NCBI GenBank assembly: GCA_026392115.1 | Contig: JAPLCQ010000011.1 | Span: forward strand, 1-44,891 | Reading direction: 5' to 3' | Length of the DNA: 44,891 nt | Origin: Armatimonadota bacterium | Lineage (GTDB): Bacteria > Armatimonadota > Chthonomonadetes > Chthonomonadales > CAJBBX01 | In this document: positions 10,145-26,910 of the stretch, one piece after another | Layout: every line of letters starts with the position of its first letter | Position numbering within the stretch: position 1 is the first letter of the stretch | Position numbers and translations under genes: made by a program | Notes under the pieces: model-generated | Seen by the model: only the letters and a program-made list of their open reading frames with translations | Told to the model about the DNA's origin: nothing | Databases searched by the model: none

Positions 10145-12160
10145 ATGTCGCTTGGCGACGATCCGATCAACGAAACTCCGGGGCGAGCCGCCGGGTCGCG
10201 TCCCAACCGCGGCGCGCCGACGGACGGCGCAACGCCTCGGCACACCGGCGGGCCGCTCACGGTTCGCGCCTTCGTCCTCAGCGCGTTGTTCGCTCCCCTC
10301 TGCGTCTACTGGGCGCGGGATCAGGGCGTCGATCGCATCTTCTCGCTCATGATCCCGCCGGTGGCGTTGACGCTGCTGTTGGTGGCCCTCAACGTGCCGC
10401 TTCGGCGCCTCAGCCGCCGGTGGGCGTTCACCCAGACCGAACTGGTGCTCTTCTACGCCATGCAGGCCATCATCTGCGCGGTAGCATCGGAGTGGGTGGA
10501 CAACACCGTCGCCTATGCACACAGCTACGCCCTGTTCGGCGCCGGAAACAGCAGCGTGGAGAAGGGCATCCTCCCTTACGCCAGCGACCGGCTCTTCTTC
10601 CTGAACAAGGTCGGGTTGGACACATACACCGGCGGAGGCAAGCCGCTCTCCTACGCATTGACCCAGCTTCCGCTCTGGGGGCCCAAGATCGCCGCATGGA
10701 CGCTGCTCATGGGCCTGGTCTGCCTGGCCATGCTCTGCATCAACTCGCTCATGCGGGACCAGTGGACCAACCGGGAGCGCCTGTCGTTCCCGACGCTGCA
10801 ACTGCCCATCGCCATCACGCAGGCGGGGGGAGCCGGCCCCATCTGGCGGAGCCGCTGGATGTGGGGCGCTTTCGCCGGCATGTTCGCAATCGACATGCTC
10901 AACGGCCTCTCATTCCTCTACCCATCGATCCCGAGCATCAACGTCCGGTTCATGGGTGACGTCGGCGCCTGGTTCCCCTCGCGCCCATGGAGCGACATCG
11001 GATGGACGCCCATCGCCATCTTCCCCTACCTGTCGGCGATCGGCCTGTTCATGCCGACGGACCTGCTCCTCTCCTGCATAGTCTTCTTCTTTGTGCGGAA
11101 GGGCCAGCAGGTGCTGCTCTCGAGCATGGGCTACGAACAGGGCTACTTCGGGGGAGGAGGTCTGGTTCCCACGCCTCCATACGCGACCGAGCAGTCTTGG
11201 GGCGCGTTCATCGGTCTTGCCGTCATGGCCGTCTGGGTGGCGCGTGGCTACCTGCGGGAGGTCTGGGGCGAGATACGGAACGGCGGGACGACCGATCGCA
11301 GGCTGGTGCCCCACCGCCTTGCGTTCGCCGGGCTCGTGGCATCGGTCTGCGGTCTGGGCGCCTTCGGGGTGCGGTGCGGGCTGCCGTTCGCGTTCGTCAT
11401 CGGCTACAGCGGAGCTTTCCTCGTGTTCAGCGTCGCGCTCACGAAGCTCCGTGCGCAGCTCGGGCCGCCGCTCAACGAGGTGGCGCTGCTTGGCCCCAAC
11501 CAGCTCATCGTGGACTTCCGGGGCACCCACGGCATCCCGGCCCCGATGATCGCCCGGTGGGTCACCATGCTGAACTTCATGAACCGGATCCACCGCACGC
11601 ATCCCATGCCGCACCAGTTGGAAAGCATCAAGCTGGCCGAGCAGCATGGGGTCAGCCAGAGGGCCATGTTCACGGCCATCGCCCTGGCTTCGGTTCTGGG
11701 CATCGCCATGGGCGGCCTATGCCAGGTGATCATCGGCTACAGGTTGGGCGCCACGAACACCGCCTGGGATACGCCGGCCATCATCCAGCAACTCACCGAC
11801 ACGCCGAGGCCGCCCAACCTCGCGGCGATCTGCGCCATCACGCTGGGTTTCGCCGGAGTTCTGGCCCTGGACAGCGTCCGGTTCCACATGCCAGGCTTCC
11901 TGCTGCATCCCGCCGGCTACGCATTGGGCATGAACTTCGGCATCGACTACATCTGGTTTGGACTGATCCTTGTTCTGATCCTGAAGGTCTACGTGCAGCG
12001 CTACTACGGGCTCGGCGGATACGAGCGGCTTCGTATGGCGGCCCTCGGCGTCATCCTCGGCGAGTACGCCGCCGAGACGATCTGGTCGGGGCTTGCCATG
12101 CTGACGCATGCGGCGACCTACACGGTGAGCATCAACGGACGGCTCATCTGGAACCAATGA
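10145..12160 (+). CDS. DUF6785-type polytopic membrane protein, putative transporter
   Basis: From the ATG at 10145 the product is 671 residues. GGGAG lies 8 bases upstream; in-frame starts at 10130 and 10061 are possible. After a polar N-terminal tail of about 40 residues there are roughly 13 hydrophobic segments, beginning with FVLSALFAPLCVYWA and ending near the C-terminus, so it is an integral inner-membrane protein. The pattern, including RWAFTQTELVLFYAM after the second helix, matches proteins annotated as DUF6785/DUF6784 in Armatimonadota, Planctomycetota and Verrucomicrobiota. No biochemical function is established for them. The promoter overlaps a LacI operator and the next gene is a URO-D-family protein 67 bp downstream. 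I infer uptake of a sugar or a related breakdown product. Confidence 0.72.
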   Translation: MSLGDDPINETPGRAAGSRPNRGAPTDGATPRHTGGPLTVRAFVLSALFAPLCVYWARDQGVDRIFSLMIPPVALTLLLVALNVPLRRLSRRWAFTQTELVLFYAMQAIICAVASEWVDNTVAYAHSYALFGAGNSSVEKGILPYASDRLFFLNKVGLDTYTGGGKPLSYALTQLPLWGPKIAAWTLLMGLVCLAMLCINSLMRDQWTNRERLSFPTLQLPIAITQAGGAGPIWRSRWMWGAFAGMFAIDMLNGLSFLYPSIPSINVRFMGDVGAWFPSRPWSDIGWTPIAIFPYLSAIGLFMPTDLLLSCIVFFFVRKGQQVLLSSMGYEQGYFGGGGLVPTPPYATEQSWGAFIGLAVMAVWVARGYLREVWGEIRNGGTTDRRLVPHRLAFAGLVASVCGLGAFGVRCGLPFAFVIGYSGAFLVFSVALTKLRAQLGPPLNEVALLGPNQLIVDFRGTHGIPAPMIARWVTMLNFMNRIHRTHPMPHQLESIKLAEQHGVSQRAMFTAIALASVLGIAMGGLCQVIIGYRLGATNTAWDTPAIIQQLTDTPRPPNLAAICAITLGFAGVLALDSVRFHMPGFLLHPAGYALGMNFGIDYIWFGLILVLILKVYVQRYYGLGGYERLRMAALGVILGEYAAETIWSGLAMLTHAATYTVSINGRLIWNQ

Positions 12161-12161
12161 C

Positions 12162-12177
12162 GCGCCGCCCACGGCGC
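12162..12177 (+). other. Short hairpin between permease and URO-D genes
   Basis: GCGCCG-CCCA-CGGCGC forms a 6-bp stem with a 4-base loop immediately after the permease stop codon. No T-run follows, so it is more likely a stabilising or processing hairpin within the operon than a full terminator. Confidence 0.35.
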
Positions 12178-12227
12178 ATCCGCTACGACGGGCGCCCACC
12201 TCGGCGTCCACAGGAGACCCATACCTA

Positions 12228-13358
12228 ATGACATCCCGTGAGAGGCTGCAGTGCGTGCTGCGAGGGGGTATCCCCGACTGCGTGCCCGTATGCCCCGACA
12301 TTTCGAACATGGTTCCGGCGCGACGCACCGGTAAGCCCTTCTGGGACATCTACCTCTACAACGATCTGCCGCTCATGGACGCGTACATCGATGCCGCCCG
12401 CCACTACGGCTTCGACGCCTTCATGGACCTCTTCCCGCTCACCTTTCCCGAGGAGGCCGCTGGAGCCGAGGGATTGGAGCGCTATATCGTCCGCCGCACG
12501 GAAAGCGCGATCACCACGCGGCTCTGCCGCAAGGAGGGAGGCAAGCGGACCTGGAGCCCCACCGTGGATGTCTTCCCGGTGGCCGATCCGCCCACCCACG
12601 GTGTGGACCCGGCCAAGGTTGGCCTGCCGTCGGTTCCCGAGCGCTTCGAGCCGGTAGAGGGCGTGCGGCCCTTCGACACGGGGCCTGCGGGCTTTCAGCG
12701 GATCAAGCGGCGCATGGGGGATCAGGGCCTGGTGGGCGTTTACGTCACCTACTCGGCCGTTCTCGGCAACCCGGACATGATTTACCACTACCTCGACAAC
12801 CCCGACCTGCATGAGCAGTGGGCCGAAGAGCGCGTGCGGGTCGCCGAGGAGCGCTTCGCCCGTGTGATGGCCATGGAGGAGAAGCCTGACTTCATCTGCG
12901 TGGGAGGCTCAGGCACTCTGGTCTTCCAGACGATGGAGATCTTCCGCCAACTGGCCTTCCCGGCGGTGAAGCGCGTCATCGACCTGGCCACTGAGGCGGG
13001 CCTGCCCACGCACATACATTCCTGCGGCCCGGAACGTGAACTGGTGCGCGTCATGGCCGAGGAGACAAACCTGACCCTCATCGATCCGCTGGAGACGCCG
13101 CCCATGGGCGACTGCGATCTGGCCGAGCTGAAGCGGCTCTGGGGCGGCAAGCTGACGCTGAAGGGCAACCTGCACACGACCGAGGTCATGCTGATGGGCA
13201 GCCCTGAGGACGTGGCCCGAGCCTCGCGCAAGGCGATCGACGACGCGGCCGAGGGCGGGCGGTTCATCCTCTCCACAGGCGACCAGTGCGGACGGGACAC
13301 CCCCGACGCCAACCTGGAGGCGATGATCGAAACCGCCCGCACCTACGGCCGCTACTGA
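12228..13358 (+). CDS. URO-D-family protein, zinc methyltransferase-like (MtaA/CmuA group)
   Basis: This 376-residue protein belongs to the uroporphyrinogen decarboxylase superfamily. It lacks the N-terminal RxPVWxMRQAG signature of true HemE. It does keep what looks like the zinc triad of the corrinoid methyltransferases MtaA, MtbA and CmuA: H264 and C266 in HSCG, and C354 in GDQCG near the C-terminus, followed by TPDANLEAMIE. This favours methyl transfer between a corrinoid protein and an acceptor rather than heme synthesis. AGGAGA lies 11 bases before the ATG. It follows the DUF6785 gene, a pairing that recurs in polysaccharide-degrading lineages, and probably shares its LacI-controlled promoter. 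No corrinoid protein is encoded nearby. Its last 7 bases overlap the convergent GH gene. Confidence 0.8.
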   Translation: MTSRERLQCVLRGGIPDCVPVCPDISNMVPARRTGKPFWDIYLYNDLPLMDAYIDAARHYGFDAFMDLFPLTFPEEAAGAEGLERYIVRRTESAITTRLCRKEGGKRTWSPTVDVFPVADPPTHGVDPAKVGLPSVPERFEPVEGVRPFDTGPAGFQRIKRRMGDQGLVGVYVTYSAVLGNPDMIYHYLDNPDLHEQWAEERVRVAEERFARVMAMEEKPDFICVGGSGTLVFQTMEIFRQLAFPAVKRVIDLATEAGLPTHIHSCGPERELVRVMAEETNLTLIDPLETPPMGDCDLAELKRLWGGKLTLKGNLHTTEVMLMGSPEDVARASRKAIDDAAEGGRFILSTGDQCGRDTPDANLEAMIETARTYGRY

Positions 13359-16300
13359 GCCCTGCGCCGGAGCGTCACCCGCACCACCTCGCCGAAGGGG
13401 GTCCAACCCGCTGCCACCAGGCGGAGCGTGACCCGCGTTTCGCCGGCTTGGCCCGCCGGCAGGACGCCCTTGAAGCGGCCGTCGGCGAGGAAGGGCGTAT
13501 CGGTCGCCAGCGGGATGAGGGCCTTGCCCCCGTCCCAGGTTGCCTCGAGGTAGACGCCGCCGGCCTCCTGTCCCGGGCCTTTCGGGGCCAGCCAGGAGGC
13601 CTCGGCGGTGTTGCCCATTTCGGCCTCGAGCGCCACGTCCTCACCGGCTCGGAGGTCGATCACGGCTCCGTCTCCGGCGTCGCGCCCGCCGATGCGGAGG
13701 CGGTTCAACTCGGCGTTCAGGTACTTGGGCGGGTTGGAGCCGGTGGCGGGCACGTTGCCCACGGCCACCCTCGGCGCGTTGGCCGACGTGGTTCCCGCGG
13801 CCTCGGTGCGGACGCCCGGCGACTTGCCCTGCAGGAACGCGGCAACCCAGGCCGGCGCGGCCTCGGCGTAGAGGCCCGAGAAGCCGGTGGCGTGCTTGTC
13901 ACGGTCCACGGTGATCAGGACGTCGGGCCTGGGCGCCGGACCCAGCCTCCGCATGGCGGGCGCCACGACCTGATAGACCTCGGCCGCCGGGCGCGGCGTG
14001 CCGTCGGGCTGGATAATGCCGAAGTCGCTCTTCTCGTCTACGCGCAGGCCGCCGGGCCACCACCAGCCCGCTGCGCCGTCGGCCCCCGTCTCGCGCACCA
14101 TGGCCAGCGTCTTGCGATAGTAGTCGGCCGACTGCTGCAGGTTCTCGGTCAGGAGGGCGTGGGTGTAGGCCTCCGGGCTCACGCCGTAGAAGAGCGCCGA
14201 CCCGAACTCCGCCCAGTAGACCGGCTTGCCGCCGCTGTAGTAGCGCCCGTAGGCGTTGAGGAAGCCTCCGCTGAGGAAGCCCTTGCGGTCGCCGCCGATG
14301 TTGTAGCCCTCCGGCGACGTGAAGTCCAGGTGCTTGGCGCCGCTGCGGAGGTCCACCGGCAGGTGGCCCTGGGTCCAGAGCGCCCCAAGTCCGCCCCATC
14401 CGCTGCGGGCGCCCATGAGATGCCGCGGGTCGACCTCGCGCACGGCGCGCCGAACCGCTTGGTAGCCGCGCGAGAAATTGTCGTCCCAGAAGCGCCGGTA
14501 CGCGGCGGTGAAGACGCGCCACGGGCCGTCGGTGGTGAGCAGGTCGTCGGCCGGGCCGGTGAGGAGGCCCCCGTCGGTTCGGGGCGCCGCGTAGCTCCAG
14601 TCCTTCTCGGCGGCCGCCTCGCTGCCGTAGCGGTCGGCTACCCAGCGCCGCCACTCGCCGTCGTGCGGTTTCCGCGCCGCGTAGGGCCCCACATGGACCT
14701 CCCAGCCCAGGTCGTAGGCGAAGACGGCGGGGTCGTCGTCCAGTCGTGCGGCGCGGATCATCTCCTGCGCCAGGGCGGGCTGATGCGTCACGGGGTCCAG
14801 GTGGGGCAGGAAGATGTGCGCCTTGATGCCCCGCTTCTCGCACCGGGCCAGGAATTCGGCCAGCGGGCGGGCCTGGTCCAGGCGCCCGTACTGGATGCTC
14901 ACCAGGTTCATGCCCAGCCGCTGCATCTGCGCCAGGTCGCGCTCCACCACGGCGGGGTCGTACTGGTCGGGAGAGAGCCAGTGGAGCCAGTACTCGCCCG
15001 GCTCCTGCCCGGCGGAGTAGAGAGGCCAGTAGTTGATGCCGAGCGCGAACCAGGGCTTGCCGCCGAGCATGAAGCGGCCGCCGGACGCCGTGACCGTGTT
15101 CTTTTCGGTGGCCCTGCCCTGTGTCAACACGCGGAACGGCATGGCGAGGCGGTCCACGTCGGAGCCGTCAGTTCGCAGTGCCACCTCCGCGACGTACTCG
15201 CCCGGCTCCGGCGAACCGACGGAGGCGAGGTCGACGGCCATCGGTTGCACGGTATGCGCGGCCACGGTGACCTTCTGCCGCGTGCGCCGCGGGAGGCCGT
15301 CGGGCCCCCGCACGGAGGCGACGACCGTCACCTGTGCGGGCTTCGAGCCGAGGTTCACCAGCCGGGCGCCCACCGTCACGGGCTCGCCGACGAAGCCGGC
15401 GAAGCTCTCGGCGCCCGCGGACGCCAGGAAGAGCCCGCGGGCCATGCGCCGGGCCATCTCCGCCGCCACGGCGGGATAGGGCGACCCGGCCGCGGCCAGC
15501 GCGGACTGCGACACGCCGAGGAGGGCCCAGACCGAGCCCCGGTACGAACCGTCGAGGTTCAGCAGGAGGTGCGCCGCCGCGCCGCGCCGCTGGCCGGCCG
15601 CCTTGTCCATGGCCCAGAGCACCGGCACGAACCGGGCCGCGGGTGGCCTGAGGCCCAGCCCCGGCGACCGCGAGATGGCGCAGATGACGGGCCAGGCGGC
15701 GCGCAGCCGACGGCCGCGGCCGGCGGGCAGGACCGTGTCGGCTCTGGTCGGGTAGGTCTTGTACGCCGGCGAGAGGGTCTCCAGCAGCGGCGGGTTCAGG
15801 TCCACCGCGCCCACCGGGTCCACGGCGGTCTGGAGGTCGGCCACCCAGTACTCGTGGGCGGTGCCCATCTCCTGGTGCGAGAGGCCGTTGGCCAGGCCGA
15901 AGGTGAACTGCCGGGCGCGCTCGGGGTTCATGCGGTCGCCGTTGCCGCCCCTGCCGCGCGCGGCGCCGTCGGGCCAGAAGGTCATCTCCTCGGCGCGTAT
16001 GGCGTAGCGCGTCCACTTCGGCGCAAGCTTCACGGTGGACATCCAGCGGGTGCCGTCGGCCTCCTTCCACTCGACGAGCAGTTCGGGCGTCTTCGGTCCG
16101 CCCTTTGCCCAGAAGGTGGTCAGCGTGCGCCCGCCGTTGAAGGGGGCATCCAGCGCATGGCTGCCCAGCGTATCCCACGTGTCGAGCTTGGCGACCCGAA
16201 CGTGGACGGCCGTGGCGCCGCCGGGGCCGCCCGGCTCCGTCAGGTATACGGCCTCGCTGCCTGCGGTGCCCGTCACGCGGGTCCAGCGCTTCAGCTCGGC

Positions 16301-16756
16301 CGGATCGAAGCGAACCACGGGCGTCCCCGCGGCCTCGGCCAGCTTGGCCTGCAAGCCCGCCCGGCCGGCCCACTTGCCGCCCACCCGTACGCGCATCTCC
16401 TGGAAGGGTGGACCGGAGAGCGCCAGCAGATGATTGCCGCGATTCAGGAACCGCAGCAGCGGCTCCCGCGCAGGCGCCGGGAACGCCGGCGAATAGGGGA
16501 GCGCCAGCGTGACGCCGGGCCCTCCTTCGGCGTCCAGGGCTGCGGCCAGGCCCTCCGCGCTCGTGTCGCGGCACTGGAGCCCCGCCGCCGTCAGGGCCCG
16601 GCGCAGCGCCGGAACGACGGCCTCGGCGGAGCCCTCGAAGCGTTCGGTGAGCAGGATCACCCGGCCCAGCGGGGGCTCGGCGGCACCGGATGGCGCTGAG
16701 GCTGCCAGCGAGGCCAGCCCGGCAGTGAGGCCCGCGAGAACGATGCACCAGGTCAT
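13352..16756 (-). CDS. Large secreted TIM-barrel glycoside hydrolase
   Basis: The product has 1134 residues with a signal peptide (MTWCIVLAGLTAGLASLAAS). Residues about 30-130 look like a small alpha/beta domain, about 150-300 a beta-sandwich and about 480-575 an Ig-like fold. A GH-A clan barrel begins near residue 590 at FMLGGKPWFALGINYWP. Candidate catalytic glutamates are E686 (in DLGWEVHVGPY) and E850 (in VYWAEFGSA). A beta-sandwich closes the protein. GGAGGAG lies 5 bases before the ATG. The first 67 codons and the upstream region are duplicated at 20811-21087, directly after the PL22 gene. This implies that the gene was once the third cistron of that operon and was separated by the 16834-20810 insertion. 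It could now be transcribed only from its own or island promoters. GH family and substrate are not resolved. Confidence 0.75.
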   Translation of the reverse strand: MTWCIVLAGLTAGLASLAASAPSGAAEPPLGRVILLTERFEGSAEAVVPALRRALTAAGLQCRDTSAEGLAAALDAEGGPGVTLALPYSPAFPAPAREPLLRFLNRGNHLLALSGPPFQEMRVRVGGKWAGRAGLQAKLAEAAGTPVVRFDPAELKRWTRVTGTAGSEAVYLTEPGGPGGATAVHVRVAKLDTWDTLGSHALDAPFNGGRTLTTFWAKGGPKTPELLVEWKEADGTRWMSTVKLAPKWTRYAIRAEEMTFWPDGAARGRGGNGDRMNPERARQFTFGLANGLSHQEMGTAHEYWVADLQTAVDPVGAVDLNPPLLETLSPAYKTYPTRADTVLPAGRGRRLRAAWPVICAISRSPGLGLRPPAARFVPVLWAMDKAAGQRRGAAAHLLLNLDGSYRGSVWALLGVSQSALAAAGSPYPAVAAEMARRMARGLFLASAGAESFAGFVGEPVTVGARLVNLGSKPAQVTVVASVRGPDGLPRRTRQKVTVAAHTVQPMAVDLASVGSPEPGEYVAEVALRTDGSDVDRLAMPFRVLTQGRATEKNTVTASGGRFMLGGKPWFALGINYWPLYSAGQEPGEYWLHWLSPDQYDPAVVERDLAQMQRLGMNLVSIQYGRLDQARPLAEFLARCEKRGIKAHIFLPHLDPVTHQPALAQEMIRAARLDDDPAVFAYDLGWEVHVGPYAARKPHDGEWRRWVADRYGSEAAAEKDWSYAAPRTDGGLLTGPADDLLTTDGPWRVFTAAYRRFWDDNFSRGYQAVRRAVREVDPRHLMGARSGWGGLGALWTQGHLPVDLRSGAKHLDFTSPEGYNIGGDRKGFLSGGFLNAYGRYYSGGKPVYWAEFGSALFYGVSPEAYTHALLTENLQQSADYYRKTLAMVRETGADGAAGWWWPGGLRVDEKSDFGIIQPDGTPRPAAEVYQVVAPAMRRLGPAPRPDVLITVDRDKHATGFSGLYAEAAPAWVAAFLQGKSPGVRTEAAGTTSANAPRVAVGNVPATGSNPPKYLNAELNRLRIGGRDAGDGAVIDLRAGEDVALEAEMGNTAEASWLAPKGPGQEAGGVYLEATWDGGKALIPLATDTPFLADGRFKGVLPAGQAGETRVTLRLVAAGWTPFGEVVRVTLRRRAQ

Positions 16757-16833
16757 GTGGCTCCTCCGGCCGGGCTCATCGCCGGCGGTCCTCCACGGTC
16801 AGCCGCCCGGAGACGGTCAGTTCGCGCGTCTCG
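16557..16833. repeat. 277-bp direct repeat, left copy
   Basis: This segment matches 20811-21087 without gaps: 262 of 277 bases agree, and nine of the fifteen differences fall in one run of 24 bases (the signal-peptide cleavage region of the GH gene). It holds the first 66 codons of the intact GH gene, its ribosome site, and the last 18 codons of the PL22 gene. The two copies bracket the 4-kb island. Confidence 0.92.
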
Positions 16834-16850
16834 CGGCGGCGCGACATTGG

Positions 16851-18443
16851 CTACTCGGCTGGATTATACACACACCGAAACACACAGCTTCTGCAATCAA
16901 ACGTAGTGTCAACACCGTCATATGTCAGAGGCAGTTCATTGCGATAGTAGCACCCCGGATGCTCGAGCGTCCATGAACCGAACGTGCCACCCCTCACAGA
17001 ATGGACCCAACCGGTCTCAGGTCCCGGTGGATTCGAACCCGGCGCCTCGGAGTAGTAGGTCTGACTGAACCAGTCGTTGCACCACTCCAACTGCCGGCCC
17101 AGCATTCCAGCGCAACCATACGGTGAGGTCCGCAGTCGAAGCTCATCTGCTGTGCCCTCCTGCCACTCATTCCCCCATGGATATAGGTACCCGTCCGAGC
17201 CACGAGCCGCCTTCTCCCACTGGGCCTCGGATGGCAGAGCAACTCCAGCCCATTCCGCATACGCTCGCGCCGCATGCCACTCGACCGACGGCATTGGATC
17301 ACTATCGAGCCAGCGTTCAGGGTTCCCAGGCAGATAAAAAGTTCGACCAGTGGCAGCGCAAAATCTCTTGAACTGCAGTATCGAGACGGCTCTTGTGTAT
17401 ATCCAAAAGCCACTTAGGTACACGACTCTCTGCGGCATACAAGAAGGCTTGGCGCACGGATCCGTGTGCCTGGCACCCATTATGAACTGGCCGCTGGGCA
17501 CCCACATTAGCTGCGAACCATCACACGGATTAACCGTATAGTCGCCTATAGAATTTCCAACACCTGGAGGCCAGCCACAGGATGCAGGCGCAGTGGAACC
17601 CGCCTGCGAGATGATAGTTTCCCACGAGCTACGGTGCTGCGTGTCCAACTTTAGGCAACCATCAATAATATGCCCCAGGGGATAGGGAAGAGCGTCACGG
17701 ATGATGGGCAGGCCAGTCGTCAGCGCTGTGTAGTCAGCGACAGAGCTGCAGTCGCACGGAAGGGCCCCAGTCAGGCATTCCAGCAGTACCGCTCCAAGGG
17801 CCCAGACATCGCACAACGGATCGGCCTCACCTGCCTGTAGCTGGGGCGAGCAATACCGGCTGGCACTGCGACTGAGCACCCCGTTGGACCGGTCTAGGCT
17901 GTTCGGTGTGGCTGGCATACCATCCACCATGCCTTTGGCCGCTATTCCGATGTCGGCCAGCTTCCATACACGGCCCGCGCACACGATGCTTGAGGGGGTC
18001 AGGTTACCGTGCACCAACGTCATGTCTGACAGAAATCGGATCGCTTCTGCGATATGCCGCGCAATAATTATAGTCTCCGCGGCCGACAAGTGACCACATC
18101 GAATCAGCTTGCCACGCAAAGTATCGTCAGCAAGTTCAGTCGCTATGTAAAGAAAGACTGGTAGTGTTTGTGAATGGAACTCACCAGCACCGCGAAACGT
18201 TACGATATTGGGATGCGAGACGCCGGCTAGTGCACGGGCTTCGTTCACCACACGGTCGCGCGAATCACCGTCGCGGGGCGAGTACATCCGCAACTCGACA
18301 GGTCCTACGGCGTGCCCATCGACGATCTCGTTTGCCAGGTACCGACAACCGGCGTCGCCCACCGCCGCCGCTCGTCCTGTGATGCGGTACCTACCGCCAA
18401 CGACCAAACCGATCAGGCTCTGTCCGGCTTCTGCTTTGGTCAT
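16851..18443 (-). CDS. Pseudokinase fused to an FGE-like (C-type-lectin-fold) domain, copy 1
   Basis: The product has 530 residues and no signal peptide. Residues about 18-280 follow the protein-kinase fold: GRYRITGR at the start, a likely alpha-C glutamate E68, HGNLTPSSIV at 145-154, DIG at 164-166 and DVWALGAVLLECLTG at 212-226. The HRD aspartate is replaced (HGN at 145-147) and the beta-3 lysine position reads VELRMY, so catalysis is doubtful. Residues about 305-525 are a formylglycine-generating-enzyme-like domain (MWVPSGQFIMG, LPSEAQWEKAARG, YPWGNEW, LEWCNDWF, VRGGTF). The two active-site cysteines of true FGE are not both present, so a ligand-binding lectin-type fold is likelier. GGAG lies 8 bases before the ATG. 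Its paralogue ends 90 bp upstream. Confidence 0.85.
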   Translation of the reverse strand: MTKAEAGQSLIGLVVGGRYRITGRAAAVGDAGCRYLANEIVDGHAVGPVELRMYSPRDGDSRDRVVNEARALAGVSHPNIVTFRGAGEFHSQTLPVFLYIATELADDTLRGKLIRCGHLSAAETIIIARHIAEAIRFLSDMTLVHGNLTPSSIVCAGRVWKLADIGIAAKGMVDGMPATPNSLDRSNGVLSRSASRYCSPQLQAGEADPLCDVWALGAVLLECLTGALPCDCSSVADYTALTTGLPIIRDALPYPLGHIIDGCLKLDTQHRSSWETIISQAGSTAPASCGWPPGVGNSIGDYTVNPCDGSQLMWVPSGQFIMGARHTDPCAKPSCMPQRVVYLSGFWIYTRAVSILQFKRFCAATGRTFYLPGNPERWLDSDPMPSVEWHAARAYAEWAGVALPSEAQWEKAARGSDGYLYPWGNEWQEGTADELRLRTSPYGCAGMLGRQLEWCNDWFSQTYYSEAPGSNPPGPETGWVHSVRGGTFGSWTLEHPGCYYRNELPLTYDGVDTTFDCRSCVFRCVYNPAE

Positions 18444-18533
18444 CTGTCATGCTCCGCGTGCACGCCGAGCGACCAGTTGTGCGCCCACACGCCAGATGCC
18501 GAGGGCCTCAGCGAGAAGAGTGAGCGGTGTCGG

Positions 18534-20165
18534 TCAGCAGGCGCAACGGAAACCAACGTCGTCCCTCCGTTCAGCGGGTTCGCACGGGTATCTGAGCGCT
18601 AGACGCATGTACCTTGAGCCCGCGAATGCCCATACCTCTTGCACAGACTTGAACGCGAGAAATGCCCGTACGTCGGCCTCAGTCGGCGTACTCCACGCCC
18701 CTCCCCTGCACACGCGGAGCCTTCCGGTGTGTGGACCGACCGGATCCAGATCGCGCTGAGATGCGTAGTGCTGATCAGCAAACCAATCAGCGGACCACTC
18801 CCAGACATTGCCAACCAAGTCCACGAAGCCGTGTGCTCCATCACTTACCTGCTGTGCCGTGACGTGCTCTGGGCCTGACCGTTTTATGCGTACTGAGCAG
18901 ATGCACTCGCGCTCCCGCCAAGGATCACCCCAAGGGTACTGGAAACCTCCCGCCCGCCCGCGAGCCGCGTATTCCCACTGAGCCTCCGTAGGCAGCCTGG
19001 CGTGCGCCCACTGGGCGTATGCCGCCGCATCGTGCCACGTTGCGCAGACCATCGGGTACGCATCACCCCATCCCCACGGCGGTGTCAGATCGTCCCAAGG
19101 GAAGCCGTGGCCGGTGGCAGTGCAGAATTGCCGGAACTGGGCGACCGTCACAGGCAACCTGTACATCCAGAATCCGGTCATCCGGGTGCGGCGCTGAGGG
19201 GTCTCACAGGCATATGCACAGGAATCGCTCTCAGGCGAACCCATGAAGAACACCCCCGGGGGGATCCACGCCATATCGGCACCGTCAACAGGGTTCGCCG
19301 TGAAGGTGCGGACATCGGCTGGAGGCAGCGGTGGCCACGTCTGGGACGGCATGACGCGGTACGATGCATAGCTTGTGCAACGACTGTGGGCTCGCCCCTC
19401 GGCTCCAGCAATGCCGTCGTCGTCGATGCCGCAAGCTTGCAGTATCTCTGGCACGCTCCGAGGTGACGCAGGGAGCAGTCGCGGCTCGACCGCGTCCTGC
19501 GGAAGCATCGGCGAATGGCTCAAGCATGCGTCAAGCACATCGCGATGCCCCAACACGTCAATGGCTGGTGTTCTAGCCGCCTCTGTCCGGCTGATCCCCG
19601 ACGCTAGGCCCGGCAGGCTTCGGTCGTTGGCAGCAATGGTCCGCGCAGTTGCGTCTGCCGCGGGCGATGCCCAGCCAAGCGCGAAGCAGTCAAGTTTCCA
19701 CACAGAACCGACGCGCACAATGCTCTGCTCTGTCACGCGGACACGCCGTACAGCCCGAGAGTCAAGATAGGCCTGAGCGGCAGACACATCCTGCGCCAGA
19801 GTACGTGCCTCGCCCTTGGTCAGGCTACCACGATTGCGGAGCAGCGAGGCCAATGAGTGGTCGTACGGCTCTAGTGCAACGAAGACCGCTGCAGTCACGC
19901 GCCCGCCCGCGATCATGCCTGCGCCGCGGTACCGAATCAAGTTGGCATGACTCCATGAGACGATCGCCAGCACGTCGAGCAAGGCGGAGGCGGCGACTGC
20001 TGTGTCTTGACACAGATTGAGCCAGACCACGGCGCGACCAATGACGCCTCCAAACGCCAGTTCATCAGCGGAATATAGCCACTTATGCACACCGGCGTCC
20101 CGGACCGCCGTAAGCCTATACCTACCGTCTAGCACATCACCAACAAACGATTCTGGTAAGACCAT
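18534..20165 (-). CDS. Pseudokinase fused to an FGE-like (C-type-lectin-fold) domain, copy 2
   Basis: The ATG at 20165 (GGGAG 8 bases upstream) is preferred because its product begins just before VGDVLDGRYRL, aligning with copy 1; the frame is open up to an ATG at 20384 but the extra 73 residues look non-coding. The 543-residue product has a strongly degraded kinase region (about 14-245). HRD is replaced by RVR (141-143), no DFG is recognisable after VWKL, and the C-lobe is shortened. Residues about 290-543 are the FGE-like domain, with IPPGVFFMGS, LPTEAQWEYAARG, YPWGDPW, GNVWEWSADWF, CRGGAW and VGFRC. After RGGAW (487-491) the segment to residue 520 is longer than usual and hydrophobic. The FGE cysteine pair is absent, so I infer ligand binding, not formylglycine formation. 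Confidence 0.82.
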   Translation of the reverse strand: MVLPESFVGDVLDGRYRLTAVRDAGVHKWLYSADELAFGGVIGRAVVWLNLCQDTAVAASALLDVLAIVSWSHANLIRYRGAGMIAGGRVTAAVFVALEPYDHSLASLLRNRGSLTKGEARTLAQDVSAAQAYLDSRAVRRVRVTEQSIVRVGSVWKLDCFALGWASPAADATARTIAANDRSLPGLASGISRTEAARTPAIDVLGHRDVLDACLSHSPMLPQDAVEPRLLPASPRSVPEILQACGIDDDGIAGAEGRAHSRCTSYASYRVMPSQTWPPLPPADVRTFTANPVDGADMAWIPPGVFFMGSPESDSCAYACETPQRRTRMTGFWMYRLPVTVAQFRQFCTATGHGFPWDDLTPPWGWGDAYPMVCATWHDAAAYAQWAHARLPTEAQWEYAARGRAGGFQYPWGDPWRERECICSVRIKRSGPEHVTAQQVSDGAHGFVDLVGNVWEWSADWFADQHYASQRDLDPVGPHTGRLRVCRGGAWSTPTEADVRAFLAFKSVQEVWAFAGSRYMRLALRYPCEPAERRDDVGFRCAC

Positions 20166-20810
20166 CAGCTCAGCTCCCGCCCCATTGCGTATATCCGTCA
20201 GGCACCGCCATCGAAGAGGAACCACCGCGCTACCGGCTAGCCGTGTGGCCGAGCGCCATCGACCGGAACCGTTGCCACCGTGCGTTCCGGTGCTCCATGC
20301 GCAGTCGGCGTCCAAGCAAGGAGTCGCGGACGGGAGTGGTGCACGGCAGAGCAGGCGACCCTCAGACCATAGCGATTCTAGCACCGAGTATGCCTGCTAT
20401 TGCTTATGCGCGACGAGTGCATCCGGCCAAGTACAAGGGCCCCAACGCCACCTGAGGCTGATTGCCCCTGTGCCAGCTTAGCAGATGACGGCCTTGGCCA
20501 GTCTGGGTTCACTGTGCACCTTGTCGGCGCGACTGGCCGGACCGATGGGATGGCCGGCGTTCACACATGGCTACAGGAACTGCTCTACCGGAGGGAACTG
20601 CCGATGGGCGGCCTCCGCGCTATGCTTGCCCGGGCCTGTGATGTACAGGCCGAACAGCCATATGGCGACTATCAGCAAGCAACCGCATACCGACACCGGT
20701 GCACATCCCTGTCTAAGGCTCTAAGGCACCTGCGTGCCAACTGCTCAGGGATCGGTTGTCCTGTCTCCACTATGGTCATCCTCCGTCCTCTTGCCCATCT
20801 ACAGAGTCAG
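20166..20810. other. Non-coding stretch upstream of the pseudokinase genes
   Basis: About 645 bp hold no convincing gene on either strand. A plus-strand frame (20400-21263) runs from here through the right repeat and antisense into the PL22 gene, so it is probably chance. I looked for a copy of either gene's 3' end, as a template repeat would be, and found none by eye. The promoter of the two island genes should lie here. Confidence 0.5.
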
Positions 20811-21010
20811 GCGCCCGTGTCGCGGCACTGGAGCCCGGCCGCCGTCAGGGCCCGGCGCAGCACCGGAACGACGGCCTCGGCGGAGCCCTCGAAGCGTTCG
20901 GTGAGCAGGATCACCCGGCCCAGAGGAGACTCCGCCGCCTCGGCAGGCGCTGAGGCCGCCAGCGAGGCCAGCCCGGCAATGAGGCCCGCGAGAACGATGC
21001 ACCAGGTCAT
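20807..21010 (-). pseudogene. Truncated duplicate of the GH gene 5' end
   Basis: From the ATG at 21010 the frame reads as the first 66 or so residues of the GH protein at 13352-16756, with a few substitutions (for example APAEAAESPLGR for APSGAAEPPLGR). It then leaves the repeat and meets TGA at 20807-20809. The ATG lies 19 bp after the PL22 stop codon, preserving the ancestral operon junction. The product would be a signal peptide plus about 40 residues and is unlikely to be functional. Confidence 0.88.
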
Positions 21011-21087
21011 GTGGCTCCTCCGGCCGGGCTCATCGCCGGCGGTCCTCCACGGTCAGCCGCCCGGAGACGGTCAGTTCGCGCATCTCG
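20811..21087. repeat. 277-bp direct repeat, right copy
   Basis: This is the partner of 16557-16833 at a constant offset of 4254 bp. It contains the truncated GH start and the intact 3' end of the PL22 gene. Homology stops sharply at both ends: at 20811 the island begins, and at 21087 only the true PL22 gene continues. Confidence 0.92.
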
Positions 21088-22124
21088 TCGCTCACATGGG
21101 CCAGGTAGGCCTGCGGCACGCCGGTGCGATCAGAGTTGAAGATCACCATGCGCCCGTCGGGGCTGAACTGCGGGTGCGGGTGCGTCATCTGGGCGTGGCC
21201 CTGCGAACTCCGCGGCAGGCAGAGCGCGCGGAAGTGGCCCGTGGGCACGTGGATCAGCTGTAGCCCCTCGTCGGGCCAGTTGGTGTCGGTCACGATCCAG
21301 TCGCTGTCGAGGCTTGCGGCTGAGTGCCAGAAGGTGCGGCCCCGGGCCACAACCGACGGCGTCTCATCGCCCACGCCGATGCGCTGCACCTCCCTGAAGG
21401 GCGGCAGGGCGCACCCCTGCATCTCTGGCTTGCGGCCCAGAAAGGTGCAGTGGGCGAAGTCGTGGCTGGCCGTGAACCGGCCCGCCTGGCGCAGGTCCGC
21501 ATCCAGCAGGAGGTAGTGCTTCACGCCCTGGTGTACCGCAATGGCCAGCAGGCCCGCACCGCCCGGCGAGCAGGAGTGGAGCGAGACGACCCAACCCTCG
21601 TCGGCCTCGTCGACCCGGGCGCCGGCGCCGTCCGTCGCCACGCAGAGGATGCCCAGCGGACGGCTCGGGTCGACCCTGGCCCCGTTCCCCGGCGTCTGTC
21701 CGGCCGTGTAGTAGGTCGATCCGTCCGGCGAGATGAAGCCATGGCCGCCGGTGCAATCTGAACCGTGGCGCAGGACTTCCTCCTCCTGCAGGTCGTCCAT
21801 GCCGATCCGCCAGAGCGCGCCGGGCCGGTTGAAGTAGACGTGCCGCCCGTCCGGCGACATGACGAAGCCCGATGCGTCGTCGCGCTCGGTCATCTGCGTC
21901 AGGTCGGCGCCGTCGGCGTCCACGCGCCAGAGGTCCCACGGCGCCCCGCGCCGCGCCTCGCGCTGGCAGACCAGGATGAGCGTGCGGCTATCCGGCGTGA
22001 AGTTGGTGTTGGCGTACCAGAGGCAGGAGCTGGGCGTGGGGTAGCTGGTGAGCTGGACGATCCGCGCCCCGGTCGCGGCGTCGACGCTCTCCACGCGCTC
22101 GTTCATGCTGAGGCCCTTGGGCAT
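21030..22124 (-). CDS. Oligogalacturonate lyase (PL22-like) beta-propeller
   Basis: The 364-residue protein shows repeated propeller-blade motifs such as FTPDSRTLIL, MSPDGRHVYFN and FSPDGRMVIFNSDRTG. AQMTHPHPQFSPDG supplies Q312, H315 and H317 in the Q-x-x-H-x-H spacing of the metal site of PL22 oligogalacturonide lyases. H267 (WHSAAS) is a candidate fourth ligand. PL22 enzymes cleave unsaturated or saturated digalacturonate by beta-elimination, usually in the cytoplasm, and no signal peptide is present here, in agreement. AAGGAG lies 9 bases before the ATG at 22124. Only 3 bp separate it from the upstream Gfo/Idh/MocA gene, so the two form an operon. The GH gene once followed directly. A generic TolB-like propeller is the alternative if the metal site proves non-functional. 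Confidence 0.82.
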   Translation of the reverse strand: MPKGLSMNERVESVDAATGARIVQLTSYPTPSSCLWYANTNFTPDSRTLILVCQREARRGAPWDLWRVDADGADLTQMTERDDASGFVMSPDGRHVYFNRPGALWRIGMDDLQEEEVLRHGSDCTGGHGFISPDGSTYYTAGQTPGNGARVDPSRPLGILCVATDGAGARVDEADEGWVVSLHSCSPGGAGLLAIAVHQGVKHYLLLDADLRQAGRFTASHDFAHCTFLGRKPEMQGCALPPFREVQRIGVGDETPSVVARGRTFWHSAASLDSDWIVTDTNWPDEGLQLIHVPTGHFRALCLPRSSQGHAQMTHPHPQFSPDGRMVIFNSDRTGVPQAYLAHVSDEMRELTVSGRLTVEDRRR

Positions 22125-22127
22125 GGC

Positions 22128-23159
22128 TCAGGGCTCCTTGCGCGGCGCGGGTAGGCCCATATCGGTGAGGCGGACCGGCTTGCCGCCCGTGGCGGCGGAC
22201 CGTAGCGCGGCGTAGTAGATGGCGGTCTTCTCCAGCATCACGGCATGGGGAACAGGCTCCTCGCCGGTGCGGAAGAACCGCGCCATCTCGTCCAGCAGGC
22301 GCTCGTAGGTCACGTCGAGGCGCACCTCGTCGGCATCGGCCTTGGCGCCGAACAGCTTTACGACGAACGAGTACCACTCCGCGCCGGGACCTATCATCTG
22401 CACCACGCCTCTCGCGGCGCCCACCGCCGACTTTGCAGCGTACTGCACGTAGACCACCACCGGTGCGTCGGCGTTGTTGGCGTCCTGCGGCGAACGGTGC
22501 AGCGAGAGCGCCTGGACCGACTCCACGCCCGTACCCAGCACGCTCACCATGGAGGCGACGGCGTGCGGCAGGTAGAACCCGAGGTGGCTCGACGCACCCG
22601 TGACCGTGAAGAGCCGCAGCCCGCCCAGCGTGGCCAGCTTCTCGCGCGCCGGAGCCGCCTGCCGAGTATGGAAGAGGGCCGATGCCGAGTAGACGCGCGC
22701 GCCATGCGCACCGGCCAGGCGGAGGATCTCCTGGGCGTCGGCTACGCTGCCCGCGAAGGGCCGGTTGAAGAAGAGCCGCTTGCCCGCGCGCAGCATGGGG
22801 CGCGCCAGCTCGAGGTAGGCGCCCGGCGCCTCCTCGGCGACGATGACGCCCGCCGTCCCCTGGCCGGTCTCCTCGGGCCGGGCGACCACCACGGCGCCCA
22901 CCTTCTCGGCCAGCCGCTTGGCCGCCGACAGGTCGCGGTCCCAGACGCGCGCGGGCCGCATGCCGTAGCGCTTGCCGCCGTCGGACGCCAGGATCTCCGA
23001 CCACGCCTTGCCGTGCGTCAGGTCGCCGCATCCGATGACGCCCACCTGCAGGACCTCGTCCTCCTGTCGCCCTTCCATTGCTTCTCCTTCCAGGGGCGCG
23101 GCTCCGGACACCAGCGCCGCTCCCAGAGCCACCGCAGTTCGCCGCGTGATCTCGCCCAT
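22128..23159 (-). CDS. Gfo/Idh/MocA-family protein with Tat-like leader and altered active site
   Basis: The 343-residue product from the ATG at 23159 begins MGEITRRTAVALGAALVSG, a twin-arginine-like leader, so export is possible. AAGGA lies 7 bases before this ATG; an in-frame ATG at 23177 has no clear site. A Rossmann domain follows (VGVIGCGDLTHG, about 39-50). The usual EKP motif of the family, whose lysine takes part in catalysis, reads FNRPF here (N122-R123-P124), and the later catalytic histidine region is not clearly preserved. The protein may bind a nucleotide or sugar without normal dehydrogenase activity. It heads the operon with the PL22 lyase, which suggests a role in uronate or pectin use. 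Its start is divergent from the WlbA-like gene, 114 bp away. Confidence 0.8.
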   Translation of the reverse strand: MGEITRRTAVALGAALVSGAAPLEGEAMEGRQEDEVLQVGVIGCGDLTHGKAWSEILASDGGKRYGMRPARVWDRDLSAAKRLAEKVGAVVVARPEETGQGTAGVIVAEEAPGAYLELARPMLRAGKRLFFNRPFAGSVADAQEILRLAGAHGARVYSASALFHTRQAAPAREKLATLGGLRLFTVTGASSHLGFYLPHAVASMVSVLGTGVESVQALSLHRSPQDANNADAPVVVYVQYAAKSAVGAARGVVQMIGPGAEWYSFVVKLFGAKADADEVRLDVTYERLLDEMARFFRTGEEPVPHAVMLEKTAIYYAALRSAATGGKPVRLTDMGLPAPRKEP

Positions 23160-23273
23160 TGCCCCATCCTTCCGCATGACACCGGTACGATATCCTGAAG
23201 GTTACGGGAAGCGGCGGCCGAATCCTGCGTACAATGGGTTGGGATGCACCAGACAGGGCGCGAGGGGGAGAGA

Positions 23274-24272
23274 ATGGCACAGGCGATCGGCGTGGCGGTG
23301 GTCGGATGCGGCTGGTGGGGTCGCAACCTGGTGCGCAACTGCCGGGAGCTGGGTGCGCTCCGCTGCGTGTGCGACAGCACCGAGACCGGTCGACGTGACG
23401 CCGGGCAACTGGCCCCGGACGTGCCCGTGGTCTCCGTGCTGTCTGAGGCGCTGGAGTGCGGCGTGGACGCGGTGGTCATCGCCACTCCGGCCGAGACGCA
23501 CTTCGAGATCGCCCGGTCGGCGTTGGCGGCCGGTAAGGATGTCTTCGTCGAGAAGCCCATCACGCTGGATCTGGAGCAGGGCGCGTGGCTGGTCCGCGAG
23601 GCCCGGACGAAGGGGCGCATCCTCATGGTGGGCCATGTGCTGGAGTACCATCCCGGTGTCGTGGCACTGGCCGACATGGTGCAGTCCGGCCGCCTGGGGC
23701 GCGTGCAGTACGTCTACTCGCACCGGCTGAGCCTGGGCAAAATCCGCCGCGAGGAGAACGCGCTCTGGAGCTTCGCGCCGCATGACATCGCAGTCATCGT
23801 CCGTCTCATGGGCGGCATGCCCATCCAGGTTACGGCAACCGGGGGCAGCTACGTGCAGCCGAACATCGCCGATGTCACGCTGACGAGCCTGCTCTTCGAC
23901 AACGGCGTCCGCGCCCACATCCACGTCTCATGGCTCCACCCATTCAAGGAACAACGCCTAGTGGTGGTGGGTAGCAAGCGCATGGCCAGCTTCGACGACG
24001 TGGCGAAGAAGCTGGTGCTGTACGACCAGCGCGTCGAGCTGCACGAGGGGATGCCCGTGCCGATCAAGGGCGAGGGCGAACTGGTGGCCTATGCCTCGGA
24101 CGAGCCCCTGCGCCAGGAGATGACGGCCTTCCTGGAGGCCATCCGCACCCGCCGCCCGCCCGTCACCGACGGCGAGAGCGGCCTCCGCGTTCTCCGCGTC
24201 CTCCACGCCGCCCAGCGCTCCCTCATGACCAATGGCGTTCCGGTGGCGCTGTCCATGGAGAGCGCCGTGTAG
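23274..24272 (+). CDS. WlbA-like Gfo/Idh/MocA dehydrogenase (UDP-sugar type)
   Basis: The start at 23274 directly follows a GGGGGAGAGA site; an upstream in-frame ATG at 23244 is less likely. The 332-residue cytoplasmic protein has the NAD-binding VAVVGCGWWGRNLVRN (residues 8-23), an intact E93-K94-P95, GHVLEYHPG, and the stretch SHRLSLGKIRREENALWSF with the following PHDI. This is characteristic of WlbA-type UDP-GlcNAc-3-uronate dehydrogenases in cell-surface polysaccharide synthesis. Unlike its divergent neighbour, its active site looks complete. No other nucleotide-sugar gene surrounds it, so it may be a stray surface-glycan gene or act on another sugar acid. A TACAAT -10-like box lies at 23230-23235 without a convincing -35. 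Confidence 0.82.
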   Translation: MAQAIGVAVVGCGWWGRNLVRNCRELGALRCVCDSTETGRRDAGQLAPDVPVVSVLSEALECGVDAVVIATPAETHFEIARSALAAGKDVFVEKPITLDLEQGAWLVREARTKGRILMVGHVLEYHPGVVALADMVQSGRLGRVQYVYSHRLSLGKIRREENALWSFAPHDIAVIVRLMGGMPIQVTATGGSYVQPNIADVTLTSLLFDNGVRAHIHVSWLHPFKEQRLVVVGSKRMASFDDVAKKLVLYDQRVELHEGMPVPIKGEGELVAYASDEPLRQEMTAFLEAIRTRRPPVTDGESGLRVLRVLHAAQRSLMTNGVPVALSMESAV

Positions 24273-24371
24273 GGTGGCTGTGTGCGGGGTCGGCGCGTGG
24301 CGTACGGCGTCTGGCGTCGATTCGTGGCAGACTCTGATGTCTCTATCCACCCATCGGAGAACCACACCGCC

Positions 24372-25334
24372 ATGCCTACCACGCTCAAGTCTCGCCTGAC
24401 CGCTCTTGCCGGCCTCGTCGCCGTCATCGCACTGACCTCGGGGTGCGTCGCCTTCGGCCTGCCGGGTCAGCCGGCTCCCGGGGTCAAGGTGATCCGCGAC
24501 CTGGCCTATGTCCCCGGCGGTGACGCGGCGCAGGTCTTGGACCTCTACCTGCCCGAGCAGGGCTCCGGCAAGCCGCTGCCCCTGTTCGTCTGGATCCACG
24601 GCGGCGGCTGGATGGGCGGAAGCAAGGATGGCCCCTACGGCCTGGACCTTGTCGGTAGGGGCTATGCCGTGGCCAGCGTGGAGTACCGCTTCAGCCAGAG
24701 GGCGATCTTCCCGGCTCAGATTCAGGACTGCCAGGCGGCCATCCGCTGGCTTCGCGCCAACAGCAAGGTGTACAACCTGGACCCGAAGCATATCGCGGTA
24801 GGCGGCGCCTCGGCGGGCGGGCACCTCGTGGCCCTTCTGGGAACTGCGGGCGGCAAGCGGGCCTTCGCGCCCGTGGGCGGCAACGAGAAGCAGTCCGACC
24901 GGGTGCAGGCGGTGCTCGACCTCTTCGGCCCGTCCGACTTCAGCGCCGTCATGAGCCAGGCTGCGGCCGACCCGACCAAGAACGTCTTCAACTTCAACCA
25001 CGGCGACCCCTATTCCCTGCTGATCGGCGTGCCGCTCGGCTCGGACAAGGCCAAGGAGCTTGCGGTCAGCCCGATCCACTATGTGACCAAGGACAACCCT
25101 CCCTTCCTCGTGCTGCACGGCACGGCCGACAGCCTGGTCCCCTTCGCGCAGAGCGTCGAGTTGTGCGACGCTCTCCACAAGGTCAGGGCCGAGGCGATCC
25201 TGCAGCGGTTCACGGGCGCAGGCCACGGCGGCCCCGCGTTCGACCAGCCGTCGGTGCGCAAGCTGGTGCGGGACTTCCTGGACAAGCGCCTGCGGGGCGT
25301 TGACGTGAGGGTCGAGGCGATCCCCGGCACGTAG
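24372..25334 (+). CDS. Alpha/beta-hydrolase esterase lipoprotein
   Basis: The start at 24372 gives a leader ending in LTSGC, a lipobox, so the 320-residue enzyme is probably anchored outside the cytoplasmic membrane. GGAGA lies 11 bases upstream. The esterase/lipase fold is clear: HGGG oxyanion motif at 76-79, nucleophile S147 in GASAGG, D253 in HGTADS and H285 in GAGHGG. Such enzymes, often annotated as carboxylesterases or BD-FAE-like, remove acyl groups. Beside pectin and hemicellulose enzymes a deacetylase or feruloyl esterase role is plausible but not shown. The next GH5-like gene begins 10 bp after its stop, so both are probably in one operon. Confidence 0.88.
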   Translation: MPTTLKSRLTALAGLVAVIALTSGCVAFGLPGQPAPGVKVIRDLAYVPGGDAAQVLDLYLPEQGSGKPLPLFVWIHGGGWMGGSKDGPYGLDLVGRGYAVASVEYRFSQRAIFPAQIQDCQAAIRWLRANSKVYNLDPKHIAVGGASAGGHLVALLGTAGGKRAFAPVGGNEKQSDRVQAVLDLFGPSDFSAVMSQAAADPTKNVFNFNHGDPYSLLIGVPLGSDKAKELAVSPIHYVTKDNPPFLVLHGTADSLVPFAQSVELCDALHKVRAEAILQRFTGAGHGGPAFDQPSVRKLVRDFLDKRLRGVDVRVEAIPGT

Positions 25335-25344
25335 AGGAGTACTC

Positions 25345-26910
25345 ATGAAGTCAACACTGCCGACCGCGATTGTTCTTTGTGCTGCATCGGCCTCTGCCCT
25401 TCTGGGCGCGCCGGCCCCGCCAACCCGGGGAGGTGTCGTGCTCACGGACGGGTTCGAGGCCGCCGGCGCGCTGCAGGATTGGCCCGGCGGCGGCGCACTG
25501 GATGCGGGCTTCCAGAGCAAGCAGTCGCTACGCGTCGAACGCGTGGCCTCAGGTTCGTCCATGGTTCGGCGCACGGTGCCCGTCGAGCGGCTCAGGGGCT
25601 ACGTGATCCGCGTGTCGGGTGTGGTCCGCGCCGAAGGCGTCTCGGACCGGCCGCAGCCGTGGAACGGTGTGAAGCTCATGCTGCCCATCACCTCCCCCGG
25701 CGGCACGCTCTACCCGCAGGCGAAGATCGGCGTCGGAACGTTCGGCTGGAAGCCCGTCAGCTTCATCATCCGGGTGCCGTCGGACGCGGCTGCGGCGGTC
25801 CTCCACCTCGGGCTGGAGGAGGTGTCCGGCAAGGTCTGGTTCGACGATATCCGCGTCACCGTCGTCCGCCCGCCTGCTCCACCCGCTCCCCGCGTCGCGC
25901 CCGCCAGGCCGTTCCGGGGCCACAGCCTGCCGCGCCTCCGCGGGGCCATGGTCAGCCCAGGCATCGACGCCGACGGCCTCCGCACATTCGGCAAGGAGTG
26001 GAACGCCAACGTTATCCGCTGGCAGCTGATCCGCTCCAACTCGCAGGCGGCCACGCAGACCACCTACGACCAGTGGCTCGATGCCGCGCTGGCCGGGCTC
26101 GATGCCGCGCTGCCCCAGTGCCGCAGGAACGGCCTGCTGGTGGTGGTGGACCTCCATTCCCCGCCCGGCGGCGCCGCAAATCAGGGCGGCTACGCCGCCG
26201 CCGACGCGGACCTCTTCTCCGACAAGCGCTGCCAGGAGCAGTTCGTGGAGGTCTGGCGCCGGATCGCCCGGCGCTACAAGGGTGTCGCGGGCATCTGGGG
26301 CTTCGACCTGGCCAACGAGCCCATCGAGGAGACCCTGGCCGAGGACGCCGACGACTGGCACGACCTGGCCGAGCGGGCGGGCAAGGCCGTGCGCGCCGTC
26401 GACCCGAGCCGGACGCTCATCGTCGAGTGCGCGGCGGGCGGCGGTCCGGGCGGGTTCGACGGCATGGAGCCTCTGGACCTGCCCAACGTGGTCTACAGCG
26501 TCCATATGTACCTGCCGCACGCATTCACGCACCAGGGCGTCTTCGGCCCGAGCCCGGAGATTCGCTACCCGGGCGTGGTGGACGGAGTGAAGTGGGACAA
26601 GGCGCAGATGGAAATCGCGCTGAAGCCCGTGGTGGAGTTCCAGCGCAAGTACGGGGTCCACATCTATGCCGGTGAGTTCAGCGCCATCCGCTGGGCTCCG
26701 GACGACAGCGCCTACCGCTATCTCCGCGACCTGATCGACCTGTTCGAGGCCTACGGCTGGGACTGGACCTACCACGCCTTCCGCGAGTGGGACGGCTGGA
26801 GCATTGAGCACGGCGCCGACCGCAAGGACAACGCTCCGGCAAAGACGCCGACCAGCCGCCAGACCCTCCTGCGCTCCTGGTACGCGAGGAATAGGAAGCC
26901 GGGGCTGTAG
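25345..26910 (+). CDS. Secreted GH5-like endoglycanase with N-terminal beta-sandwich
   Basis: This 521-residue protein has a signal peptide (about 1-22). Residues about 28-175 are a beta-sandwich carbohydrate-binding-like module ending in KVWFDDIRVTVV. A proline-rich linker follows, then a GH5 cellulase-type barrel from about residue 195. E325 in DLANEP is the expected acid/base and E444 in YAGEFSA the expected nucleophile. DLHSPPGG and HMYLPHAFTHQG are other typical GH5 strand-end motifs. GAGGAG lies just before the ATG. GH5 enzymes cut beta-1,4-glucan, mannan or xyloglucan; the substrate is not determined. It is 10 bp from the esterase gene, which suggests joint action on a decorated polysaccharide. 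Confidence 0.88.
   Translation: MKSTLPTAIVLCAASASALLGAPAPPTRGGVVLTDGFEAAGALQDWPGGGALDAGFQSKQSLRVERVASGSSMVRRTVPVERLRGYVIRVSGVVRAEGVSDRPQPWNGVKLMLPITSPGGTLYPQAKIGVGTFGWKPVSFIIRVPSDAAAAVLHLGLEEVSGKVWFDDIRVTVVRPPAPPAPRVAPARPFRGHSLPRLRGAMVSPGIDADGLRTFGKEWNANVIRWQLIRSNSQAATQTTYDQWLDAALAGLDAALPQCRRNGLLVVVDLHSPPGGAANQGGYAAADADLFSDKRCQEQFVEVWRRIARRYKGVAGIWGFDLANEPIEETLAEDADDWHDLAERAGKAVRAVDPSRTLIVECAAGGGPGGFDGMEPLDLPNVVYSVHMYLPHAFTHQGVFGPSPEIRYPGVVDGVKWDKAQMEIALKPVVEFQRKYGVHIYAGEFSAIRWAPDDSAYRYLRDLIDLFEAYGWDWTYHAFREWDGWSIEHGADRKDNAPAKTPTSRQTLLRSWYARNRKPGL

Follow-up and report, generated by a model that had tools for sequence, protein, structure and literature searches.

The locus and the inserted island

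The DNA stretch analyzed here (the window) corresponds to the complete contig C163 (44,891 bp) of G000, a metagenome-assembled genome (MAG; 5.72 Mb in 181 contigs) of a freshwater bacterium from the phylum Armatimonadota. It contains an island of 3,977 bp (positions 16834–20810) that is bracketed by the two copies of a long direct repeat. The left copy (16557–16833) is attached to an intact GH-like gene on the minus strand (13352–16756; 1134 aa), for which a Pfam search gave no match, whereas the right copy (20811–21087) is attached to an intact oligogalacturonate-lyase-like gene of family PL22 on the same strand (21030–22124; PF14583). The latter is preceded by a gene of the GFO/IDH/MocA family (22128–23177, minus strand; PF01408), the first gene of an ancestral three-gene run. 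No tRNA or structured RNA was found at the insertion site in the window.

The island differs strongly in composition from its surroundings. Its GC content is 60.9%, compared with 69.3 ± 2.1% (standard deviation) for the genome, and none of 1000 equal-size windows from elsewhere in G000 was as low, which bears out the lower-GC DNA that a preliminary description of the window, made from the sequence alone, had placed between the repeats. The GC content at third codon positions is 0.60–0.66 in the island genes versus 0.84–0.92 in the other genes measured.

Two genes were identified in the island, and they share the minus-strand orientation of the operon that they interrupt. Gene 1 (16851–18443; 530 aa) combines a protein kinase domain (PF00069) with an FGE-sulfatase domain (PF03781). 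Inspection of its kinase domain by eye revealed HGN in place of HRD and DIG in place of DFG. Gene 2 (18534–20165; 543 aa) is a paralog of gene 1 with the same arrangement of a degenerate kinase and an FGE-sulfatase domain; the two proteins share 31% identity over about 500 aa. Because the usual catalytic residues are missing from gene 1 and the kinase domain of gene 2 is even more degenerate, both proteins look like pseudokinases. The right end of the island (20166–20810) carries a protein-like open frame on the plus strand (20400–20816), for which searches of 151 genomes and of plasmids gave no relative and which may represent a gene cut by the island end.

Neither a transposase nor a recombinase was recognized in the island, and its two ends lack a matching pair of terminal inverted repeats. 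At the DNA level, only short conserved motifs matched in 61 genomes, and there was no match to plasmids. None of 291 genomes of the phylum encodes a relative of the island proteins that reaches an E-value of 1e-60, and there is no close relative in plasmids, phages, or IMG/VR. A plasmid or phage origin of the island was rejected on these grounds.

Retargeting by a diversity-generating retroelement (DGR) was considered since DGRs commonly target FGE domains and G000 possesses a DGR on contig C13. This candidate was also dismissed, as the island genes match the template only at or just above the level of shuffled sequences (at most 42 nt). The DGR itself (L070, 3960–4093, 4528–5625, and 5628–5759) has a reverse transcriptase, and its template repeat contains 34 A. 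The variable repeats differ from it mainly at A, with 15/34 versus 2/97 in a nearby gene and 16/34 versus 1/97 in one gene on C114; remote targets are located on C114 (four genes, L071) and C26 (L074).

The empty site in related species

The polarity of the event was judged from two other species of the genus, each represented by a separately assembled MAG: G001, an uncultured Chthonomonas sp. of lake origin, and G002. Positions 5932–16833 of the window align to positions 1–10902 of G001 L043 at 93.1% identity, and positions 20816–30135 align to positions 10631–19952 of the same segment at 91.4%. The two alignments overlap by 272 bp (L043 10631–10902), which means that the repeat segment is present in a single copy in G001. 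There, the run of MocA, PL22, and GH genes is uninterrupted; a check confirmed the start of the GH gene and showed the 1095-bp PL22 frame to be free of internal stops. The GH-like gene shows 91% identity to its counterpart in G001 and 86% to that in G002, and the PL22 gene shows 92% identity in G001.

The view of the preliminary description that GH and PL22 were once neighbors in a three-gene run is thus supported by an intact PL22–GH junction in a relative. The island is absent also from the site in G002, so that it is not a feature of all close relatives, which would have made it ancestral. Because both congeners lack it, the island is most simply explained as an insertion in the lineage of G000. 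The PL22 gene of G002 has had a separate fate: about 950 bp were lost between its two ends, leaving remnants (L044, G002:C206, near 12361–12369), and the two alignments at the deletion junction overlap by 9 bp.

The divergence between G000 and G001 is patchy along the window. It amounts to only 1.2–1.4% at positions 11432–11931 and 12433–12932 but to 8–15% in neighboring segments, which suggests recombination between the two species. A strain chimera at the junction was considered and rejected, because the divergence of the flanks from G001 ranges from 1.2 to 15.6% without a step at the island.

The duplicated target

The two copies of the repeat align without gaps at 262 of 277 positions (94.6% identity), exactly as given in the preliminary description, which had likewise recognized correctly that each copy is attached to one intact gene and carries the end of the other. 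The left copy covers 200 bp from the start of the intact GH gene, the gap between GH and PL22, and a dead 58-bp fragment of the PL22 3' end; in the right copy, the gap lies between the 3' end of PL22, here belonging to the intact gene, and a 5' fragment of GH that is dead. Since the start of GH falls inside the left copy and the end of PL22 inside the right one, both host genes survive. The left edge of the repeat is fuzzy, with clear homology to the empty site of G001 only from positions 16562 and 20816 onward, which sets the length of the duplicated target at 272–277 bp. The copies have an exact run of 102 bp in common.

The copies are equally distant from the outgroups: they match G001 at 249 and 247 and G002 at 234 and 235 of the 277 positions, and where G001 and G002 agree, each copy carries five derived changes. 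At seven further sites, both outgroups agree against both copies. The mismatches between the copies are unevenly distributed; as noted in the preliminary description, 9 of the 15 fall into a single run of 24 bp (16668–16691), which has a probability of about 1.5e-5 under uniform placement.

Islands with the same scar elsewhere in the genome

A scan of 1.85 Mb of G000 (about 32% of the genome) for direct repeats of at least 35 bp with at least 84% identity and a spacing of 0.7–16 kb yielded 35 pairs, many of them in tandem genes or inside a single gene. Pairs in L098, L138, L173, and L071 were discarded as gene-internal repeats or tandem paralogs. Around other FGE loci of G001 and G002, only two repeat pairs enclosing DNA of lower GC were found, neither with the structure seen in the window; the pair in L163 is located within a tandem array of FGE genes.

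Four further islands, at unrelated sites of G000, are flanked by a duplicated target that is single-copy at the empty site of a congener. The island on C29 encodes a C5 DNA methylase, a 260-aa frame, and Vsr, and thus resembles a restriction-modification (R-M) system. Its site is empty in both G001 and G002, with an overlap of 94–96 bp that includes the 3' end of a fumarylacetoacetate-hydrolase gene, and its two copies are identical (93/93). The island on C47 carries a KaiC-like ATPase and is flanked by a 198-bp duplication, into which the 3' end of a gene for a 915-aa protein falls; the site is empty in G002, whereas the island is present in G001. Here, the copies differ at 15 of 198 positions, and the dead copy holds 10 of the 14 changes that can be polarized. 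The island on C7 encodes a PIN-domain protein and a 96-aa partner, by appearance a toxin–antitoxin pair, and is flanked by a duplication of 55 bp. The site is empty in G001; the insert occurs also in G002, with a longer duplicated flank. On C134, a DUF2971 gene is flanked by a repeat of 65–69 bp in G000, with a 48-bp overlap at the empty site in G001. Together with the window, this amounts to five confirmed insertions at unrelated sites, with duplications of 277, 198, about 95, 55, and 48–69 bp. Most of the duplicated sites include the 3' end of a gene, and no common motif is visible at the ends of the inserts.

The island on C1, which carries a SocA/Panacea gene and is absent from G001, is a probable further case. 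Its duplication measures 70 bp in G000 and at least 158 bp in G002 (L239, G002:C117), as if the left copy in G000 (L087) had been trimmed after insertion. An R-M system on C20, composed of a C5 methylase and an NgoMIV-type endonuclease, is flanked by a weak repeat of 46 bp; the poor conservation of this repeat at the G002 empty site makes it only a tentative case.

The region around the KaiC-like island (5.5 kb; L190 4701–10175 versus L210, G001:C8) is 98.8% identical between G000 and G001, compared with about 91–93% around the window, which may reflect either a recent exchange or a binning mix-up.

The recurrence of the pattern bears on two of the alternative explanations. An assembly artefact, in which the assembler fused, inside the repeat, sequences of two strains or of a chromosome and a free circle, had been regarded as the main rival in the preliminary description. 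The contig does stem from a MAG, and the exact run of 102 bp shared by the copies is longer than low k values. Nevertheless, an artefact is very improbable, given that duplications of the same kind flank islands at unrelated sites and recur in separately assembled genomes: the C47 island is present also in the assembly of G001, at 98.8% and not 100% identity, and the SocA island is flanked by two copies in G002. Moreover, both insert junctions must exist in the data. The dataset that includes G001 was built from 150-bp reads with MEGAHIT at default settings (PMC8121793). The other alternative, in which an element with a long attachment (att) site integrated site-specifically at gene ends, would account for direct repeats around an island, for the integrity of both neighboring genes, and for the frequent inclusion of gene 3' ends. 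It would, however, require a recombinase, none of which was recognized in the island, and targets and duplication lengths differ everywhere, while the insert ends carry no motif, which makes this the least credible explanation of all.

Origin of the duplication

Insertion with long target duplication, here with a rather long target, is the probable explanation for the window, and such events recur in this genome. One indication comes from substitutions that are common to both copies of a target but not present in the outgroups, which number 5 in C29, 13 in C47, 5 in C7, and 5 in C134, in addition to those in the window. Because both copies share such recipient-specific substitutions at every confirmed site, the duplicated DNA came from the site of the recipient's own lineage in all five cases. 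This pattern also supports the inference that the duplication was formed during the insertion event. The lack of a common motif at the ends and the differing lengths of the duplications give no indication of a transposase or of a fixed att site. The divergence between the copies, which ranges from 0/93 in C29 to 15/277 in the window and 15/198 in C47, whose island is common to G001, fits insertions of differing age.

Insertion would then involve duplication of the recipient's own DNA. Two nicks or stalled replication forks, tens to hundreds of bases apart, may have undergone fill-in and been linked to a captured fragment; alternatively, a back-jumping template switch may have been involved. 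The copies would subsequently diverge and sometimes be homogenized, and recombination between them could delete the insert, which would return the site to its empty state. Such excision would account for the inserts on C7 and C1 that are present in G002 but not in G001.

Several observations weigh against this interpretation. Plain mutation after insertion does not explain the mismatch cluster in the window well, because 9 of 15 mismatches fall into the 24-bp run compared with only 7 of 42 in the interspecies pattern of G001 and G002 (Fisher P 0.003); the cluster thus exceeds the interspecies signal of this fast-evolving signal-peptide region. Exchange with the allele of another strain, uneven gene conversion, or a circle that came from a related strain could each have produced it, and it must be regarded as real but only partly explained. 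In addition, the 277 bp of the window exceed the 'order of 100 bp' quoted for this class of insertions, and its cargo is not an R-M system, although the C29 island does carry a C5 methylase and Vsr.

In the preliminary description, the mismatch cluster was read as if the copies came from two alleles, and single-crossover (Campbell-type) integration of a circle bearing a short homologous segment was proposed to explain the structure. A circle with the PL22–GH segment might, for example, have been excised from an earlier insertion in another strain. Such an event yields the identical final structure, and a circle from the same species could account for the cluster. A comparable route has been proposed for transposed genes of Arabidopsis (PMC2869330), and the genus does recombine, as indicated by the divergence of 1.2% to 15.6% between G000 and G001 across 500-bp windows. 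However, an earlier event would be needed to load the segment onto the circle, and each unrelated island would require its own circle matching its own target. No plasmid match was found, IMG/VR contains no relative of either island gene, and there is none in 61 genomes. Both copies in the window carry substitutions of the recipient lineage and are equidistant from G001 and from G002, which disfavors a circle with an allele from a foreign lineage, and the copies on C29 do not differ at all. The preliminary description was therefore right about an insertion, about repeats that are copies of the target, and about the lack of a transposase, and the clustering is genuine; integration of a circle with a diverged homologous segment is an unlikely, though not the most remote, account of how they arose.

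Comparison with known systems

Target-site duplications of transposons usually measure about 2–14 bp, with a length specific to the element, and the elements end in terminal repeats. The duplication in the window resembles them in being a direct copy of the target but differs in its length and in the lack of terminal repeats at the island ends. With Campbell-type insertion-duplication it shares the target segment on both sides and the preservation of the genes; that process depends on a circle with a pre-existing homologous segment, and none was found among plasmids, IMG/VR, and 61 genomes.

The closest parallel is provided by R-M systems. A passage in a review (PMC3874152, citing Nobusato et al. 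2000) states that some of them insert with long and variable target duplications on the order of 100 bp, and the pattern has been described in Helicobacter pylori (PMC1643837). A further report (PMC3031569) repeats the pattern, yet shows movement linked to insertion sequences in the laboratory. Like the insertions of H. pylori, the island in the window is a small module with an empty site in a relative, a long duplication of a kind that varies in length, and no visible transposase. Unlike them, it carries a pseudokinase–FGE pair, is flanked by a duplication of 277 bp, and resides in a member of Armatimonadota. The PIN, KaiC-like, DUF2971, and Vsr/methylase cargoes of the other islands in G000 differ from the H. 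pylori class as well. R-M genes are, however, a frequent but not a required cargo of insertions with long target duplication (PMC3874152, PMC1643837).

In Arabidopsis, transposed genes are likewise bracketed by direct repeats that are single at the empty site of a relative. For moved genes with genic flanking repeats, the authors prefer excision as a circle and homology-based re-insertion, and some of the flanking repeats were found at the parent site (PMC2869330). This model is close to the circle proposed in the preliminary description.

Implications

The movement of transposase-less genes by insertion with long target duplication is known but poorly understood, and the manner in which transposase-less R-M, toxin–antitoxin, and similar modules enter genomes is an open question. 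Among the 19 papers of the searched open-access library in which the phrase 'long target duplication' occurs, those that use it for bacteria deal mostly with H. pylori or with R-M genes. A cautionary point also follows for the interpretation of assemblies: when an island lies between two direct repeats that have diverged, neither a pair of parental alleles nor a faulty assembly has to be assumed.

With five insertions that have duplications of 48–277 bp and empty sites in congeners, the genus offers material for a comparative study of the mechanism, including copies that form an age series, junction sequences, and different types of cargo. It is conceivable, though at present rather doubtful, that insertion with long target duplication serves self-contained, transposase-less conflict modules as a general and frequent route, beyond Helicobacter and R-M systems, and that the pseudokinase–FGE pair in the window is such a module that has so far gone unrecognized.

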